Below, in pieces: positions 12,229 to 63,611 of a stretch of DNA of 64,000 bases. The DNA is taken from the IMG/VR virus record IMGVR_UViG_3300017963_000282, positions 1-64,000 of that record; one strand, written 5' to 3'. The position numbers and the translations under genes were made by a program. Position 1 is the stretch's first letter; each line of letters starts with the position of its first letter. The stretch is from a virus. The notes under the pieces are model-generated. The model saw nothing but the letters and a program-made list of their open reading frames with translations, was not told the origin of the DNA and did no database searches.

Positions 12229-12798
12229 TTATGGGGTTTCCGCCCAAATCCTTGCGGCTTTTTCCCAAGAATCCTGGGTCGTTGCAGTAGATTCCGCGAT
12301 AAACATTTCCCGTTCCCTGGATTCGGAATTACCTGGGCCATAACCTTGATCTCTGAAAAACAAATCCATATAATCACGTACTGATAAATTTTTTGGTTGG
12401 ACTCCGGCCACAGCTTGAAGACGTTCCAGATAATAAAGACGCTTCGTTTCGTCAAATGAGAGGTCTTTAAATGTCCGAGTCATTGTATGTGTGCCCCCAC
12501 CCGTCGCTGCGGAAATCACTACAATTGACCCATTAAATGCGTCTAAATATCGAACCGTGCTGGCATCTACATAATCAATCCAATAATTAGTCGGATAAGG
12601 ATTCAAACCAGTGGGCAAAGTGCCGGTAGTGGATAATTGAATAAGATCATTTTGAACGAATGGATGCCCAGCTTCCGTAATCGTATTAGCTGGATCAATA
12701 GTGACATCCCCATCCACAAAGTCCGCAGTATAAATCCCGGCCAAAAATGTCCGATATTTTTCCAATAAAAGATCGCCTAATGGATCAGTTGCCGCCAT
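12229..12798 (-). CDS. Virion-associated protein with tail-domain insert
   Basis: 189 residues. The middle (about 35-105) matches a module common in phage structural proteins: a TITEAGHPFVQNDLIQLS opening, a TGTLPTGL turn, NYWIDYVDASTVRYLDAF and a GGGTHTMTR end. Flanking helical parts (LLLEKYRTFLAG, LERLQAVAG) may anchor it to a partner. The start overlaps the upstream lipase stop (TAATG). Its precise place in the virion is unknown. Confidence 0.55.
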   Translation of the reverse strand: MAATDPLGDLLLEKYRTFLAGIYTADFVDGDVTIDPANTITEAGHPFVQNDLIQLSTTGTLPTGLNPYPTNYWIDYVDASTVRYLDAFNGSIVVISAATGGGTHTMTRTFKDLSFDETKRLYYLERLQAVAGVQPKNLSVRDYMDLFFRDQGYGPGNSESREREMFIAESTATTQDSWEKAARIWAETP

Positions 12799-13631
12799 TA
12801 TTGGTTCCCCTTAAATTTATTCATTACGGCTTCATAGCCAATTTGCATCATTTGTTCTTTCTGTTTTTTGGTTAAATTAAAATCAATCGCGGAGATATCC
12901 TTAATAATTATAGGGACAGTTTGTTCCCAGTAATTAGATTTGATATGTTTATGGGAAGATGTATCCAACAAAGCTCCAATAATGCTTTTATCATATTGAA
13001 AAATATCCCACCAGTGTTTTTCTTTTTCCTGACCCTTCCCCTGAATCCAAAGTCCAATCAATCTCCGATTACTTTTCAAAATTGAAATCGGATAATTATT
13101 TATAATCCCACCATCGGTCAATTTCCATACTTGTCCAGTAGTAGGATGTCGCATTTTAATAGAGCCAAAATAATACGGAATACAGGCCGACGCTAAAATT
13201 GCATCTACTGCTTTCACAGAACCACAGGAAAATTTATCTAAAAGAATTTCTGAGTCACTTTTCGTATCATATGCAACAGTTCCCAAATAAAGTGGTAATT
13301 CAGCCAATGTTTTATTTCCAATAAAAGAGAATAAAAACTGTTTTAATTTGGCATACGAAAAAATAGCTCGCTTAGTCAATAATAACCAGGGAGCAAAAGC
13401 CTTTAATTTGCTTAAATCCAATTCCCAAAAAATATCTCGTATTTTTTTAGGATCAAATCCAGCTGCGTAAAATCCACCTATAATTGCCCCACCAGATGTG
13501 GCCACAACTCTAACCGGCTCAAAATTTAATTCCTGTAGGGCTAATAAGCCACCAATATGGCCACCCAATCGAACTCCTGATCCGGATAATGCAAGATCAA
13601 TTTGAATTTTAGAATCCTTCGGCTTTTCCAA
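12798..13631 (-). CDS. Patatin-like phospholipase
   Basis: The patatin motifs are in order: glycine-rich oxyanion loop SGSGVRLGGHIG (about 16-27), nucleophile elbow ATSGGAIIG with Ser46, ACIPYYF, and the dyad aspartate in TDGGIINNYP (Asp173). The enzyme would hydrolyse acyl ester bonds of membrane lipids. There is no signal peptide or membrane segment. The upstream-most start is TTG at 13631, overlapping the previous gene by 23 bp. No better start is seen. Its neighbours include a holin-like protein, so a role in membrane breakdown at lysis is plausible but inferred. Confidence 0.85.
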   Translation of the reverse strand: MEKPKDSKIQIDLALSGSGVRLGGHIGGLLALQELNFEPVRVVATSGGAIIGGFYAAGFDPKKIRDIFWELDLSKLKAFAPWLLLTKRAIFSYAKLKQFLFSFIGNKTLAELPLYLGTVAYDTKSDSEILLDKFSCGSVKAVDAILASACIPYYFGSIKMRHPTTGQVWKLTDGGIINNYPISILKSNRRLIGLWIQGKGQEKEKHWWDIFQYDKSIIGALLDTSSHKHIKSNYWEQTVPIIIKDISAIDFNLTKKQKEQMMQIGYEAVMNKFKGNQ

Positions 13632-49505: not shown

Positions 49506-49562
49506 AAAATTACTCCTTTGAAATAATTACACAAATGTACAAAAAATGCACATACAGGAGGT

Positions 49563-49599
49563 ACTATACCATATTTTTTAAAGAAAAAAGGTATGGTCA
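49563..49599 (-). promoter_or_regulatory. GACC-box promoter P1 upstream of the scaffold/capsid operon
   Basis: Minus strand: box TGACCATACC (49590-49599), 26 bp, then -10 TATAGT (49563-49568), with TATGG just before it. No -35 consensus is seen. An inverted repeat ACCATA/TATGGT overlaps the region. The predicted RNA starts near 49556 and forms a hairpin (ATGTGCA with TGTACAT, one G-U pair) before the AAAGGAGT ribosome site. The same box/-10 spacing occurs at two other sites. Confidence 0.6.
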
Positions 49600-49993: not shown

Positions 49994-50455
49994 TTAAGGT
50001 GTGTCTACTGGATCTTCCAAATTATCAACATATTGATCTATATATGGTTTTAATACAAAATCCATTTGTAAAATAACCATATGTTCCCAACACGTTCGAC
50101 GTAAATGATTAAATCGAAATATAGCATGTACAAATTCATGATTTAGCGTATGGATATCACCTTGTCGGACATAAATAGAATGGGTCATCGGATGATAACA
50201 ACCCAAAGCCCATGGACCACAATAATCAAAAAGACCATCCTCATCCACATAATAAACTTTAGGAAAAGGCGGTTCTTTTAAAACACATCCCTTTGAAGCG
50301 TAAGCTTGCAATAAAACGTTGAGATATCGCACATTTGCCTTAAGCAACACCTCATGTTCCCGCACTGGAGCTGGTTTTTTTGAACTTAGTGAAAATCCAA
50401 AAATATTAAAAATCAACAATAATCCTACTAATAATGAAAAAGTGTTTCTAAACAA
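49994..50455 (-). CDS. Secreted zincin-like metalloprotease (HEFVH)
   Basis: 153 residues. Hydrophobic signal segment (LLVGLLLIFNIFGFSL, about 8-23), then a mature part with Cys pairs (C57, C79, C86, C122) that suggest periplasmic oxidation. The active-site motif is HEFVH at 106-110, and downstream WEH (123-125) could supply the third zinc ligand. Its pattern HExxH in a small secreted protein resembles minimal zincins. A second one is encoded at 53341-53925. The substrate is unknown; cleavage of envelope proteins is an inference. Confidence 0.65.
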   Translation of the reverse strand: MFRNTFSLLVGLLLIFNIFGFSLSSKKPAPVREHEVLLKANVRYLNVLLQAYASKGCVLKEPPFPKVYYVDEDGLFDYCGPWALGCYHPMTHSIYVRQGDIHTLNHEFVHAIFRFNHLRRTCWEHMVILQMDFVLKPYIDQYVDNLEDPVDTP

Positions 50456-50869: not shown

Positions 50870-51538
50870 TTATTTTTTACCCCCTTTGCGTTTTTTATTA
50901 GCCTGTTTTTTTACTTTTTTAACTAATGGTTTTTGTTTTGGCCAATCATTAAAACATAAAATTCCATCAACAAATCCATAGTTAACCACTTCTTCTACAC
51001 CTAAATATACATCCCCACCCTTGTTTTGAATAAAAAGATTTTTCAAACCAGCTTTTTTAAGCCTCGTATGGGTTTCATAAACATCATACATCATTTCCAG
51101 CCGATTCTCGCTTTCTTTACCATATGAAATAGAATCCCTAATATGTTCTGAACCGGATGAATGAACCGTTCCACCTTCATGGATCATAAAACACGTATTG
51201 GGAGCCAAATATCGTTCATCACAGGCCAACATAACAATAGTGGCCATCGAGGCCACGATTCCCCATCCAAAAGCTCTGGTATAACATTTTATGGATCTAA
51301 GAATGTCATACATCGCCCAACCGGCTTCATCCGACCCCCCACAGGAATTTACATGAATGGTTATTGGTCTTTTGTTCAATGATTCCAATAACATAAGATT
51401 TTTGTGCAACCGAATTGCCGCAGCCTGGGAAATATTCCCAATATATACTTCTCTCCTAGTGAGACTTACACCGGATTCCACATAACGCTCCAAATCATCA
51501 CCAAATGTGTTTATTTGGTCCCGTGTTTTGGCATCCAT
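50870..51538 (-). CDS. ClpP-like serine protease
   Basis: 222 residues. ClpP-fold signature: VYIGNISQAAA, IHVNSCGGSDEAGWAMYDIL, catalytic Ser97 in GWGIVASMAT, His120 in FMIHEGG, and Asp176 in GGDVYLGVEEVVNYGFVDG. All three triad residues are present. Phages use ClpP-type (S14) enzymes as capsid maturation proteases, and this gene lies about 1.4 kb upstream of the scaffold. It also has a Lys-rich tail. A role in host-protein degradation is the alternative. Confidence 0.82.
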   Translation of the reverse strand: MDAKTRDQINTFGDDLERYVESGVSLTRREVYIGNISQAAAIRLHKNLMLLESLNKRPITIHVNSCGGSDEAGWAMYDILRSIKCYTRAFGWGIVASMATIVMLACDERYLAPNTCFMIHEGGTVHSSGSEHIRDSISYGKESENRLEMMYDVYETHTRLKKAGLKNLFIQNKGGDVYLGVEEVVNYGFVDGILCFNDWPKQKPLVKKVKKQANKKRKGGKK

Positions 51539-51918: not shown

Positions 51919-52236
51919 TTATATTTTAAGTATTTGTAATTCCTTTGCTTTATTTTTGTTTTCCAGGTAGGACAAAATATGTGGTCTAGCCTCATGTAGC
52001 ACTGCCTTCTTAAATTTGGCAAATGAAAATTCATTTTGTCCAATAATTCCAAGGATTTCGGTGGGAAAGTATTCTTCAATAATTGCGTTATAGAGATCAT
52101 CCACTACCTCAGAAATTTGTTCCGGAATCTGAATTAACATACCGGAATCATTCAATTTTTCTATCCGACTAAAGATATAGTCTTGGGTCACATATCTCAA
52201 TGCAATTTTTTCTTCAATTGTTTTTTTACGTTCCAT
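51919..52236 (-). CDS. Helical hypothetical protein, about 105 aa
   Basis: I place the start at ATG 52236 (MERKKTIEEKIALRYVTQDYIF), behind a GGAGG located 14 bases upstream. Upstream in-frame codons overlap the P4 promoter. The protein is helical and charged, without a known motif. It precedes the P3 promoter region. Confidence 0.45.
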   Translation of the reverse strand: MERKKTIEEKIALRYVTQDYIFSRIEKLNDSGMLIQIPEQISEVVDDLYNAIIEEYFPTEILGIIGQNEFSFAKFKKAVLHEARPHILSYLENKNKAKELQILKI

Positions 52237-52302
52237 AATGGCAAAAATTAACCTCCATAGCTGTGAGCACATCTTAGCCACTAGGGCTCTTTTTTGCCAA
52301 TT

Positions 52303-52338
52303 AGTATAGCACACTTTTTCTAGTTGGGCGGTATGGTC
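52303..52338 (-). promoter_or_regulatory. GACC-box promoter P4
   Basis: Minus strand: box GACCATACCGCC (52327-52338), 26 bp, then -10 TATACT (52303-52308). The spacing equals that of P1 and P2. A small hairpin AGCC/GGCT follows. It would drive the 51919-52236 gene. Confidence 0.5.
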
Positions 52339-52438: not shown

Positions 52439-52600
52439 TTATCTGCGATGTTTAAAAAATTGAATTTGACGCTCTGCGGCATTAAATCTTTTTTTAGAAG
52501 GTTTTTTTGTACCAAACCACCTTAAAACCCGTCCGGTAGTTTTAGAGATCAGGGCGTATTCTAATTTACCCGTTTTGGGATTTTTTCTGTGAGCTAGCAT
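52439..52600 (-). CDS. Small basic protein, 53 aa, paralog of its upstream neighbour
   Basis: ATG at 52600 overlaps the upstream gene's stop (TAATG). The product MLAHRKNPKTGKLEYALIS ... LRWFGTKKPS ... AAERQIQFFKHRR aligns along its whole length with the neighbouring 52600-52827 protein. Shared elements are the RKNPKTG start, a WFG(T/S)KKPS turn and an AER(R/Q)(V/I)QFF end. It is very basic and may bind nucleic acid. Confidence 0.7.
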   Translation of the reverse strand: MLAHRKNPKTGKLEYALISKTTGRVLRWFGTKKPSKKRFNAAERQIQFFKHRR

Positions 52601-52827
52601 TATTTTCGTTTTGGAGGAAGTAAACTCTTCTTCCGTACCTTCCGGCGTAAGGAACCGGTGCTTTTAGCCAAATTCTCAAAAAATTGTACCCGACGTTCCG
52701 CGCTGAGAACTCTTTCATGAGATGGCTTTTTGGACCCAAACCACTTAAGAACTTTACTGGGCTTGCTATCTGCTACCAGCGCCCATTGCATCGTTCCTGT
52801 TTTTGGATTCTTTCTCCTGACCAACAT
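52600..52827 (-). CDS. Small basic protein, 75 aa, tandem paralog
   Basis: MLVRRKNPKTGTMQWALVADSKPSKVLKWFGSKKPSHERVLSAERRVQFFENL plus a 25-residue basic tail. A beta-hairpin then a helix is suggested, ending with ERRVQFF, a motif seen in small phage proteins of unknown function. Twin of the 52439-52600 product. Lies directly downstream (minus strand) of the structured 52966-53207 region. Confidence 0.65.
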   Translation of the reverse strand: MLVRRKNPKTGTMQWALVADSKPSKVLKWFGSKKPSHERVLSAERRVQFFENLAKSTGSLRRKVRKKSLLPPKRK

Positions 52828-52936: not shown

Positions 52937-52966
52937 TTGATTATATTATCTTTCTTATTATATATA
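52937..52966 (+). promoter_or_regulatory. Promoter-like sequence for the 242-nt RNA candidate
   Basis: Plus strand TTGATT (52937-52942), 16-bp spacer, TATATA (52959-52964), in a very AT-rich stretch. The predicted start would fall within the first bases of the 5' arm at 52966. AT-rich DNA gives such matches by chance, so this is weak. Confidence 0.35.
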
Positions 52967-53207
52967 GATCATTATTGATCTAACAACAGAGAACCCGGAC
53001 TAGGCAGCTAGGAAAAGAAAGAAAAACGTAATAATTACGCATATTTACAAAGTCCAGACGCACCAATACGAAAAGTGTATTTTTGAATAAAAATCACCCT
53101 TCGTATTTATGACTCCAATTTTTTTAAATCCCTGAAGCCGGGATTAACTAACCTGCCGAAATTATTCGGCTTTCCAAAAAATCTTGTTGTTAGATCAATG
53201 ATGATCT
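52966..53207 (+). ncRNA. Candidate 242-nt structured noncoding RNA
   Basis: The 513-bp stretch 52828-53340 has no credible gene but holds this element. Arms 52966-52988 and 53185-53207 form a 23-bp stem; on the plus strand the only non-Watson-Crick pair is G-U, on the minus strand it would be a C-A mismatch. Inside are a 17-bp hairpin (53065-53107), AATCCC/GGGATT (53127-53145), GCCGAA/TTCGGC (53155-53170), CGTAA/TTACG (53027-53039), and a GGACT/AGTCC pairing (52997-53055). A T-run follows the 3' arm. No known RNA family is recognised; a MITE-like element is the alternative. Confidence 0.55.
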
Positions 53208-53306
53208 TTTCTATTGAGCACTACGCCTTCTTGCCTTTTTTTACCTCGCAGTATCAAGGTCCCAGCTCATGCAAAGATAACGAGGTGTGCAAAACGCACA
53301 GAGATT

Positions 53307-53343
53307 ACTATACCATACTTTTTCAAGAAAACAGGGCAGGTCA
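53307..53343 (-). promoter_or_regulatory. GACC-box promoter P2
   Basis: Minus strand: box TGACCTGCCC (53334-53343), 26 bp, then -10 TATAGT (53307-53312). It shares with P1 the stretch TTTTCTT-x-AAAAA-x-TATGGTATAGTA. The predicted RNA begins with a TGTGC/GCACA hairpin, again as in P1. The box overlaps the stop of the 53341-53925 gene, and transcription would run towards 52827. Confidence 0.6.
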
Positions 53344-53925
53344 TTGTTTTTTTCTTAATGCCCGCCTTAAATTTTCTAATCTTCTGTGTAACTTTCGGAT
53401 TTCCCACCGTAATTGATAATTTTCAGCCATTAGACCTGCGGACAATTCATCTAAACATCGGCCATTGGGTAAAATATATTTCCCAGCTGGTTGATTTTTT
53501 GCCGCTTGGGTATTCCAGGTCATGTAATGGGTGTATTCGTGTGTTAAGGTATCCCACCGGCCTTTCAGATAATATACGGTATTGGTTTTATAATCAAAAA
53601 ATCCGTTAATTTTCCGTATTTTAGCCTTTGGATATAATTTATGATGCATTGCGGCTAATTCTTCTTTAGTACAAGAAACCGTGGCGGGGCGCGGCAATGT
53701 TAAATCATACTGACATAATTCTCCGGTATGTCCGCTCAAATGTTGCTTTAGAGTAAATTTCACATATTCATATGAATCCTTTTCCCAAGCTTCCCTATTT
53801 TTTTCTACTACAAAAATAAACGGGGCTTTAAACCATTTAACGGGAGTAAACCATTTTGCATGGGCATATCCTGCCATCCAGCCTAATAACACCAAAGCTA
53901 ATACACAAATTATAAGCGTTTTCAT
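53341..53925 (-). CDS. Secreted zincin-like metalloprotease (HEYTH)
   Basis: 194 residues. Clear signal peptide (MKTLIICVLALVLLGWMAGYAHA). The active site is THEYTHYMTW (HExxH at 129-133) and the downstream CLDELSAGLMAE (Glu160 region) is placed like the third ligand of gluzincins. It ends in a basic coiled coil (RWEIRKLHRRLENLRRALRKKQ). It is the first gene left of the divergent promoter. Probably acts in the periplasm during entry, superinfection exclusion or lysis; this is inference. Confidence 0.7.
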   Translation of the reverse strand: MKTLIICVLALVLLGWMAGYAHAKWFTPVKWFKAPFIFVVEKNREAWEKDSYEYVKFTLKQHLSGHTGELCQYDLTLPRPATVSCTKEELAAMHHKLYPKAKIRKINGFFDYKTNTVYYLKGRWDTLTHEYTHYMTWNTQAAKNQPAGKYILPNGRCLDELSAGLMAENYQLRWEIRKLHRRLENLRRALRKKQ

Positions 53926-53957: not shown

Positions 53958-53994
53958 ATTTTACTTGCTAGAATAGGGCAAAGTCAAGTAAAAT
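53958..53994. promoter_or_regulatory. Palindromic divergent promoter
   Basis: ATTTTACTTG (53958-53967) and CAAGTAAAAT (53985-53994) form a perfect 10-bp inverted repeat around 17 bp. Plus strand: TTGCTA (53965-53970), 18 bp, TAAAAT (53989-53994). Minus strand: TTGACT (53982-53987), 18 bp, TAAAAT (53958-53963). The two promoters overlap head to head and serve the zincin gene (minus) and the lipoprotein operon (plus), so only one polymerase can bind at a time. Confidence 0.65.
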
Positions 53995-57835: not shown

Positions 57836-58013
57836 TCATTTAAAAGCATTACATCTGAAACAAGCTGCCAAGCGAAAAATTCAGGTGAATTTGGATGCAT
57901 TATGGAGATTGGTGCATTGTAGTGATGAACGCTTACTCACAATGGAGTTTTTGGATAAAATCAATACTATTATTTTGAGTTTATGTAATAAATTTGAAAA
58001 GTTAAAAAAATGA
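57816..58013 (+). CDS. Hypothetical helical protein, 65 aa
   Basis: GTG start at 57816. Basic and helical (HLKALHLKQAAKRKIQVNLDALWRLVHCSDERLLTMEFLDKI). It ends with the overlapped start of the aminotransferase. No motif recognised. Confidence 0.45.
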   Translation: MGILLDNHLKALHLKQAAKRKIQVNLDALWRLVHCSDERLLTMEFLDKINTIILSLCNKFEKLKK

Positions 58014-58891
58014 GTTTACATATTATTGATGGCAATCAATCAATTTCCACATTAAACTACAGTCTGAATTACGGTGTTTGTGCTTGGGAAGGTATTCGAA
58101 CTTATTGGGGTAAACCATTATTTTTAAAAGCCCATATAGAACGTTTATATAGAAATGTAGAAGAATTAAAGATTTTAAATTATGATTTTGATCTCCTGAG
58201 AGATGAAACACGAATTCGTCAATTTATAGAAGCCCACCATATAACTATAACATTTGGGAATTTTGGTTATTTAAGACCTATTATTTATACGGATGTTACG
58301 GAAAAAACTCTGCCTAAAGATGGTTTTCCAGCTAAATTGGATATTCATTATATGCCGGTACAATCCACTTTAAACGGCCTGTCAAAATTTATAAATATGG
58401 GATTTAATTTTTCAAAAGATTTCATTCGAAATCGTAATCATGATAAATTTTTGAAAATTTCTCCCAATTATTGGCGTGTGGACCGAGCCAAATATTTATT
58501 GCCCATAGAGGTGGATGAAGTATTATTTCATGATGGCCGGTATGTGATTGAAGGAGGATTTTCTACTCTTTTTGCGGTAGATAAAAGCGGACAAATTCTT
58601 ACTCCAGAACTGTCGGCCAATTTTTTATTGGAGGGCATTACTAGAAAATGGATACTGGATGAGTTTAAAGTAAAGCAAATTAGAGGATTTCCGCTGAATA
58701 TGGGGTACTTTGAAGATAATATTACTGAATTATTTATAGCGGGAACCCATGCTGAAATAAAATCTGTAAAGAATTTATGGTATGCCAATGAAAATATTCA
58801 AGCCGCTGCTAAAATTGGAAATGGTACCACTCCCATAGCTGATGATATTCGAGAACGATATTTTGATTATATATGGAAGGTATGTAAATGA
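58010..58891 (+). CDS. Class IV PLP aminotransferase (branched-chain/D-amino-acid type)
   Basis: 293 residues. Fold-type IV features: NYGVCAWEGIRTY, HIERL, catalytic Lys149 in FLKISPNYW, VIEGGFSTLF with Glu181, and LLEGITRKW. Full-length without truncation, so activity is plausible. The family transfers amino groups between 2-oxoglutarate and branched-chain or related amino acids, or cleaves aminodeoxychorismate. Aminotransferases are very unusual in phage genomes. The substrate and purpose are unknown; neighbours give no biosynthetic context. Confidence 0.8.
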   Translation: MSLHIIDGNQSISTLNYSLNYGVCAWEGIRTYWGKPLFLKAHIERLYRNVEELKILNYDFDLLRDETRIRQFIEAHHITITFGNFGYLRPIIYTDVTEKTLPKDGFPAKLDIHYMPVQSTLNGLSKFINMGFNFSKDFIRNRNHDKFLKISPNYWRVDRAKYLLPIEVDEVLFHDGRYVIEGGFSTLFAVDKSGQILTPELSANFLLEGITRKWILDEFKVKQIRGFPLNMGYFEDNITELFIAGTHAEIKSVKNLWYANENIQAAAKIGNGTTPIADDIRERYFDYIWKVCK

Positions 58892-62418: not shown

Positions 62419-62977
62419 AATCATTAGAAAAGGGGATGGGGCTAATGTCCCGCTTGATTTTGGAGTGCCTCCTGGATATACCATTTATTTATCCGGTGGC
62501 ATGGAATATTCATCTGATTATGGAATGGGTTGGAGAGATAAAATTGTACAAGAGCTTTCTGAGACCGGTTTTAAATTTTATAATCCTTGCGAAGAAGAAA
62601 AACCTATTTTAAAGCACCATGGAGTAAAAGATCCAACTGAGCTCTTTAAAATGAAAACATGGAAAGATTTACCAAAAGCAGTAAGCGTGGTCAAGGATTT
62701 TTTGATTAAAGATAGAAATGTTATTTATCAATGTAACGCTCTGATAGTATATTACGACAAATCTACGCAGCTGGGTGGTGGTACTGCAATGGAACAAGCC
62801 TGGGCGAATGAGGGAGTGAATGAACAGCGGCCCATTTTCTTTGTCATGGGTATTGGATTTGAACTCAAGAATGTTTCATTATCCATGTTGGCCATGTCTG
62901 ATTACATTTTTGAGGATTTAAAAGACTGCATTATTTATTTAAAAAGAGCGAGGGAACTTTATGACCATGTTACCTAA
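62411..62977 (+). CDS. Nucleoside 2-deoxyribosyltransferase-like protein
   Basis: 188 residues. IYLSGGMEYSSDYGMGWRDKIVQELSETGFKFYNPCEEE (YLSGxM, and acidic turn) and CNALIVYYDKSTQLGGGTAMEQAWA follow the nucleoside 2-deoxyribosyltransferase/YtoQ pattern, in which the catalytic Glu lies in the GTxxExxxA segment (here GGTAMEQAWA). It would exchange the base on deoxynucleosides. It overlaps the DeoC gene, matching a nucleoside salvage or breakdown unit. Confidence 0.7.
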   Translation: MARIIRKGDGANVPLDFGVPPGYTIYLSGGMEYSSDYGMGWRDKIVQELSETGFKFYNPCEEEKPILKHHGVKDPTELFKMKTWKDLPKAVSVVKDFLIKDRNVIYQCNALIVYYDKSTQLGGGTAMEQAWANEGVNEQRPIFFVMGIGFELKNVSLSMLAMSDYIFEDLKDCIIYLKRARELYDHVT

Positions 62978-63611
62978 AGATGTATTATCGAAAATTGACT
63001 TTGCTAGATTAGATCCGTGCCACTCTCTTTTACATATTCAAAAAGCTTGCAATTTAGCTTTGGATGTTGGCTTTCGTGGAGTATGTGTTCATCCAAAATT
63101 TATTGGCGTTACGAAATTTATGTTGGAAAATAGCACAATCAAAACTATTAGTGTGGTGGATTTTCCCCATGGTGGTAGGAATACTTCCATGCGCCTAAAG
63201 GACGTGATGGCTTTTCATGATTTAGGTGCCGATGAACTAGATATTGTTATGAATATCAGTGAAGCGAAAGCTGGAAATTGGAATCAAGTGTATGATGATT
63301 TAGTAGTGGTCGTAAAAGCAAGTTATGTGCCCGTCAAAATTATTGTGGAAACTGATCTTTTAGTTGAAGATGAAAAAATTAAAGCTGCGGAAGTTGTGCT
63401 GCAAAGTGGCGCCCAATATCTTAAAACTGGAACTGGAACGGTAAAAAATGGATTAGGTGCGTCCATTAGTGATATCAGATTATTTGCCGAAATCCTTGGG
63501 GATCATTGCGGCATTAAAGCCAGCGGTGGAATCAATAGTCGTCGCCAAGTATTTGATTTACTCGGATCTGGGGCTACAATTATTGGAACTTCTGGAATTT
63601 GGGATATGTAA
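62961..63611 (+). CDS. deoC: Deoxyribose-phosphate aldolase
   Basis: 216 residues. Active-site motifs: GADELDIVMN (Asp91/Asp94 region), LKTGTGT with Schiff-base Lys155, and IKASGGI with Lys186. It splits 2-deoxyribose-5-phosphate into glyceraldehyde-3-phosphate and acetaldehyde. All catalytic residues are intact. The gene overlaps the transferase-like gene by 17 bp. Together they could recycle host DNA sugar for energy. Confidence 0.9.
   Translation: MTMLPKDVLSKIDFARLDPCHSLLHIQKACNLALDVGFRGVCVHPKFIGVTKFMLENSTIKTISVVDFPHGGRNTSMRLKDVMAFHDLGADELDIVMNISEAKAGNWNQVYDDLVVVVKASYVPVKIIVETDLLVEDEKIKAAEVVLQSGAQYLKTGTGTVKNGLGASISDIRLFAEILGDHCGIKASGGINSRRQVFDLLGSGATIIGTSGIWDM

Follow-up and report, generated by a model that had tools for sequence, protein, structure and literature searches.

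A candidate 242-nt structured RNA of the minus strand in the leader behind a promoter-like motif of an uncultured tailed phage

The non-coding gap and its inverted repeat

The virus record contains 64,040 bases, almost all of which are covered by the 64-kb stretch that we analyzed (the window; G+C 37.8%). It represents a tailed phage, with genes for a head-maturation-type Clp protease, capsid, baseplate and DNA polymerase in the window. The minus strand carries the structural and replication genes, from ~53.9 kb down to 0.7 kb, and plus-strand genes begin at 54.0 kb; divergent sigma-70-like promoters lie between the two blocks at 53958-53994, where the two gene sets may be switched. The element described here sits in a 513-nt non-coding gap between a 194-aa gene (end 53341) and a 75-aa gene (start 52827), both on the minus strand (Table 1).

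Some of the encoded proteins deserve mention. The minus-strand genes 53341-53925 and 49994-50455 each encode a small protein that looks secreted and has an HExxH-like motif (HEYTH, HEFVH); neither had a Pfam or PHROG match, and by their sequences both are possible metalloproteases. On the other side of the gap, 52439-52600 and 52600-52827 (minus) encode small proteins that are tandem paralogues, 53% identical; two viral contigs encode relatives, and so does Aeromonas phage APT65 (55% over 38 aa). Inside the structural block, a 277-aa patatin-type phospholipase-like protein with GxSxG is encoded at 12798-13631 (minus), as read by eye from the translation. The translations of two plus-strand genes, 58010-58891 and 62961-63611, look like branched-chain aminotransferase and deoxyribose-phosphate aldolase, which would be host-like metabolic genes.

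The element is bounded by an inverted repeat whose arms (52966-52988 and 53185-53207, each 23 nt) are complementary at 22 of 23 positions (96%) and 196 nt apart, just as the initial annotation had reported. No other inverted repeat in the window combines a short spacer with 17 or more matches in 18 nt; by this criterion, laxer than the 23-nt repeat itself, 93 shuffled windows gave four in total. Each arm also contains the palindrome AGATCA-N4-TGATCT, which has no further exact copy in the window; the complementarity of the arms goes past the palindromes, through AACAAC/GTTGTT. The one irregular pair of the stem is U-G when read on the plus strand and C-A on the minus strand, again as first described. 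The T-run noted just after the 3' arm does exist, although it is merely TTTTC and weaker than had been claimed. We found no open reading frame of at least 50 aa inside 52966-53207, in agreement with the earlier view of the element as non-coding; the start of a spurious-looking ORF, at 53198, touches its right edge.

Table 1. Positions of the element, its predicted helices, and neighboring genes and putative promoters
Feature	Position	Strand	Detail
Stem-enclosed structured RNA domain (candidate), 242 nt	52966..53207	-	From folding and arms-fixed shuffles
Closing helix, 5' strand (RNA sense)	53182..53207	-	One C-A mismatch; core repeat 53185-53207
Closing helix, 3' strand (RNA sense)	52966..52992	-	Core repeat 52966-52988; 25 bp, mean probability 0.90
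Helix outside the junction helix, 6 bp	53178-53173 / 52999-52994	-	Probability 0.91
Hairpin GCCGAA-UAAU-UUCGGC	53155..53170	-	Mean probability 0.98
Junction helix, 9 bp (53154-53145 / 53010-53002)	53002..53154	-	Probability 0.87
Hairpin AUCCC-GGCUUCA-GGGAU	53128..53144	-	Probability 0.96
Long central hairpin, 3+22 bp	53056..53116	-	Loop AUUC; probability 0.92-0.96
Hairpin GCGUAA-UUA-UUACGU	53026..53040	-	Probability 0.91
Promoter-like motif copy 1	53306..53342	-	Predicted start near 53300
Promoter-like motif copy 2	52302..52338	-	Predicted start ~60 nt before ATG at 52236
Promoter-like motif copy 3	49562..49598	-	Predicted start ~51 nt before ATG (49505) of the gene ahead of the capsid gene
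Stretch from predicted start to element, 93 nt	53208..53300	-	5'-end hairpin UGUGC-GUUUU-GCACA; otherwise not unusually structured
Sigma-70-like TTGTTA-18-TATAAT	52957..52986	-	Spacer contains arm palindrome; weak (7 sites vs 5.0 expected)
Downstream gene, 75 aa	52600..52827	-	Paralogue of 52439-52600 (53%)
Upstream gene, 194 aa	53341..53925	-	HExxH-like motif; orphan

Fold and strand of the element

Any inverted repeat folds on both strands. When the whole element was folded, the plus strand reached -71.6 kcal/mol (z -8.4) and the minus strand -84.0 kcal/mol (z -8.8), each far below its dinucleotide shuffles, none of which (0 of 200 per strand) was as good. The closing stem dominates these whole-element scores, making them uninformative on strand, and therefore we kept the arms fixed and shuffled the interior alone, with dinucleotides preserved, 500 times for each strand.

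The two strands then parted. On the minus strand, the minimum free energy was matched by one of the 500 shuffles, and the ensemble spread and entropy by none; the spread was 14.7 where the shuffles averaged 50.4. The plus strand was distinguished by energy only (matched by 4 of 500), and its spread and entropy were matched by 123 and 138 of the 500, so that it favors no single structure. The interior without its arms agreed with this test (minus z -3.8, 0 of 300 shuffles; plus z -2.7, 3 of 300). Thus the minus-strand interior is both more stable and better defined than its shuffled counterparts, and the plus-strand interior is only more stable. Mean pair probabilities told the same story, at 0.87-0.98 throughout the minus helices and 0.50-0.64 for several internal helices of the plus fold. 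The four to five internal helices that had been described on the plus strand accordingly hold up in part: the central hairpin is confirmed, with 8+9 bp on the plus strand and 22 bp on the minus, and several of the other plus-strand helices are the weak ones just mentioned. Sliding-window folds with crude shuffles did not pick out the element, probably because their 120-nt steps cut the closing stem.

Wobble pairs are informative about strand as well. In the minus fold, ten pairs are G-U and read A-C on the plus strand, and the plus fold has a single G-U pair; the minus structure, read on the plus strand, retains only -61.1 kcal/mol. In all, 10 of the 11 strand-informative pairs point to the minus strand, and the lone exception is the closing-stem pair from which the initial annotation had argued for plus-strand transcription. 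The closing stem alone does slightly favor the plus strand, with a duplex energy of -33.8 kcal/mol against -29.8 kcal/mol on the minus strand, where the helix runs for 7 bp to the C-A mismatch, then for 15 bp without a break, and ends in a short extension. That helix nonetheless persists when a 551-nt model of the minus transcript is folded, with a mean probability of 0.93. The defined fold, the informative pairs and the promoter motif described below all favor the minus strand, and we do not support transcription against the flanking genes. From its sequence, 52966-53207 is in our judgment quite probably a genuine minus-strand structured RNA, and a credible orphan with its strand now corrected to minus.

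Promoter context and searches for relatives

A 24-nt direct repeat at 52300 and 53304 belongs to a longer motif of 37 nt, GACC-N3-CC-N10-AAAAA-N-T-N-TG-N-TATA-N-TA, which occurs in three copies with identical spacing, all on the minus strand. The motif is bipartite: 10 nt separate a GACCnnnCC box from the A-run, and an extended -10 (TGnTATAnT) follows. It looks like a phage promoter. With three mismatches allowed, its expectation is 0.01 per shuffled window; this value is optimistic, as those three copies were themselves the source of the pattern, and for that reason the count shows a non-compositional origin and is no independent test. A simple sigma-70 scan of the window did not list any of the three copies. 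A 162-aa ORF, in its longest reading, includes copy 2; a shorter start exists for this ORF. A hairpin follows the predicted start at copies 1 and 3.

Copy 1 differs from the others in what follows it. From its predicted start (~53300) there are 93 nt, then the element, then 138 nt to the 75-aa gene, a non-coding leader of 473 nt compared with 51-60 nt behind copies 2 and 3. Because copy 1 lies so far from the next gene, the leader that the element occupies is unusually long. A scan for terminators found no site near the element on either strand, nor any before the next gene, and a scan for promoters found none on the plus strand around the element's left end. The proposal of a stand-alone non-coding RNA is therefore borne out as to structure and lack of coding and falters on the words stand-alone: with no terminator found before the next gene, the element may instead be a leader domain or a processed product. 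The sigma-70-like site that overlaps the left arm (52957..52986) is possibly a second promoter, or an operator, for the next gene.

The element resembles no known family. Among Rfam 15 covariance models, none matched above its gathering score anywhere in the window, and the element region itself gave chance-level matches alone (best E 2). The window contains no tRNA gene or tmRNA by our searches, and models of group I and group II introns and of tmRNA had no match. The virus record has no second copy of the element. Phages searched by blastn had no match at 1e-5, and at E 10 yielded just chance pieces of ~30-42 nt; plasmids had no match; arm patterns found nothing in viral and genome contigs, and viral contigs likewise gave nothing with a 16-nt core pattern. 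Thus no search returned a homologue, though the searched sets may leave out records very near this one.

Relatives were also sought through neighboring proteins. None came from the protease at 50870 or from the 194-aa gene. The capsid protein led to only three contigs, at 56% identity the nearest relatives found, and these had no match to the element or to its flanking genes. The small downstream gene led to two viral contigs, with no similar element seen upstream of the gene. A distant relative does have a 1-kb non-coding gap beside its terminase genes (L004:3924-4915), but it contains a weak inverted repeat alone (18 nt, 83%) and has no evident relation to the element. In sum, the element matches nothing known, and by its sequence it looks real.

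A proposed leader domain and the explanations that compete with it

We propose that a minus-strand phage transcript carries the element in its leader, as a domain enclosed by the closing stem, and that this stem is a processing site for RNase III; we give this proposal an even chance. Transcription in the direction of the structural genes would begin near 53300, at the extended -10 phage promoter, and some 93 nt downstream the 242-nt domain would fold, with its closing helix of ~25 bp around a branched core, in which three short hairpins accompany the central one of 22 bp. As no terminator was found, transcription probably runs on into the small genes at 52827-52439. RNase III would cut the closing helix and so part the leader from the downstream message, which would trim the leader and release a stable RNA of ~220-240 nt. 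Whether released or retained, the domain might serve in message processing or stabilization, or might act in trans. The strand, structure and promoter context of this model are supported by computation, and we infer the cleavage and the role of the domain; the model is built on one sequence of the element.

Phage transcripts processed by RNase III include T7 early RNA and the lambda N leader. The enzyme also cleaves the leader-trailer helices around pre-rRNA, where, as in our element, the stem encloses folded RNA (PMC10250234). All of these resemble the element in having a long double-stranded stem within a longer transcript. For E. coli RNase III, the minimum double-stranded target is 22 nt (PMC5371410), and both the 25-bp closing helix and the 22-bp hairpin of the minus strand attain this length, each being interrupted by mismatches or bulges. 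It is because the closing helix is long enough that cleavage is part of the proposal. The element differs from these substrates in its interior of ~190 nt, in the C-A mismatch of its stem, which may shape or hinder cutting by RNase III, in belonging to no Rfam family, and in being known here from sequence.

The first alternative is that the domain remains uncut and acts in cis on nascent RNA, either on the polymerase, by processive antitermination such as HK022 put brings about, or on the message, whose translation or stability it would affect. Its position, early in a transcript behind a phage promoter-like motif and in a long non-coding leader, suits this explanation. HK022 put RNAs are likewise structured RNAs early in phage transcripts, lying just after, or ~270 nt after, promoter starts, but they measure ~70 nt and have two stem-loops (PMC9378689), where the element has 242 nt, nested junctions and no Rfam match. 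Like put, the element is close downstream of a phage promoter, 93 nt from the predicted start of a promoter that we infer from sequence. Long-range antitermination is questionable, since motif copy 3 would restart transcription before the capsid genes. We consider an uncut, cis-acting leader unlikely.

A second alternative, raised in the initial annotation, is a MITE-like non-autonomous mobile element whose arms are terminal inverted repeats. The near-perfect repeats around a short non-coding interior are indeed what such elements have, and insertion would fit the two other phage contigs that lack a similar element near members of the downstream gene's family, although those relatives are distant. 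This explanation has lost ground all the same. The element is single in its record, with no match in the phages, plasmids, and viral or genome contigs reached by our searches, the arm-pattern searches included, and the strand-specific fold of its interior is not expected of a MITE. Moreover, where no clear target-site duplication had been noted before, we found none: by inspection, the sequence left of 52966 (...TTATATAT) and that right of 53207 (TTTCTATT...) share an adjacent repeat of at most one base. A mobile origin therefore seems improbable.

Third, the locus might act as DNA, the two AGATCA-N4-TGATCT palindromes being operators for a dimeric regulator, with a promoter spacer around the left palindrome and the phage promoter upstream of the right one. 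That both of the window's exact palindromes are here, the left one within TTGTTA-18-TATAAT, speaks for operators, but they would leave unexplained the arm complementarity beyond the palindromes and the folded interior; to the regulatory region as a whole, and to this placement of the two operators, we accord little credence. A mobile element and an operator pair are both less likely than a leader processed by RNase III. Finally, a stand-alone plus-strand RNA, the original proposal, could claim the U-G closing pair, the TTTTC and a plus fold that also beats its shuffles, but with a poorly defined interior, one G-U pair against ten, no nearby plus-strand promoter or terminator found, and a course against the flanking genes, it is very improbable.

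The proposed leader domain can also be set beside the ornate RNAs GOLLD, ROOL and OLE, which like it are structured RNAs of phages or bacteria to which no role has been assigned. Size and setting distinguish it: a ROOL example has 659 nt, and many GOLLD RNAs exceed 800 nt, often near tRNA islands (PMC12286853), but the element has 242 nt, no Rfam match, and no tRNA gene in its window. It could be the founding member of a new class of phage RNA, of ~240 nt, transcribed from its own phage promoter, excised by RNase III via its terminal helix and independent during infection, a prospect that we hold doubtful.

Structured phage RNAs have mostly been discovered via covariation across many relatives, so that orphans are missed. 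Here, a strand was assigned and a promoter context found from a single uncultured genome, and this gives a concrete RNA to seek in metatranscriptomes and to probe for excision by RNase III. Should it indeed be excised and act independently, the few phage RNAs with complex folds and no known roles would gain one more.
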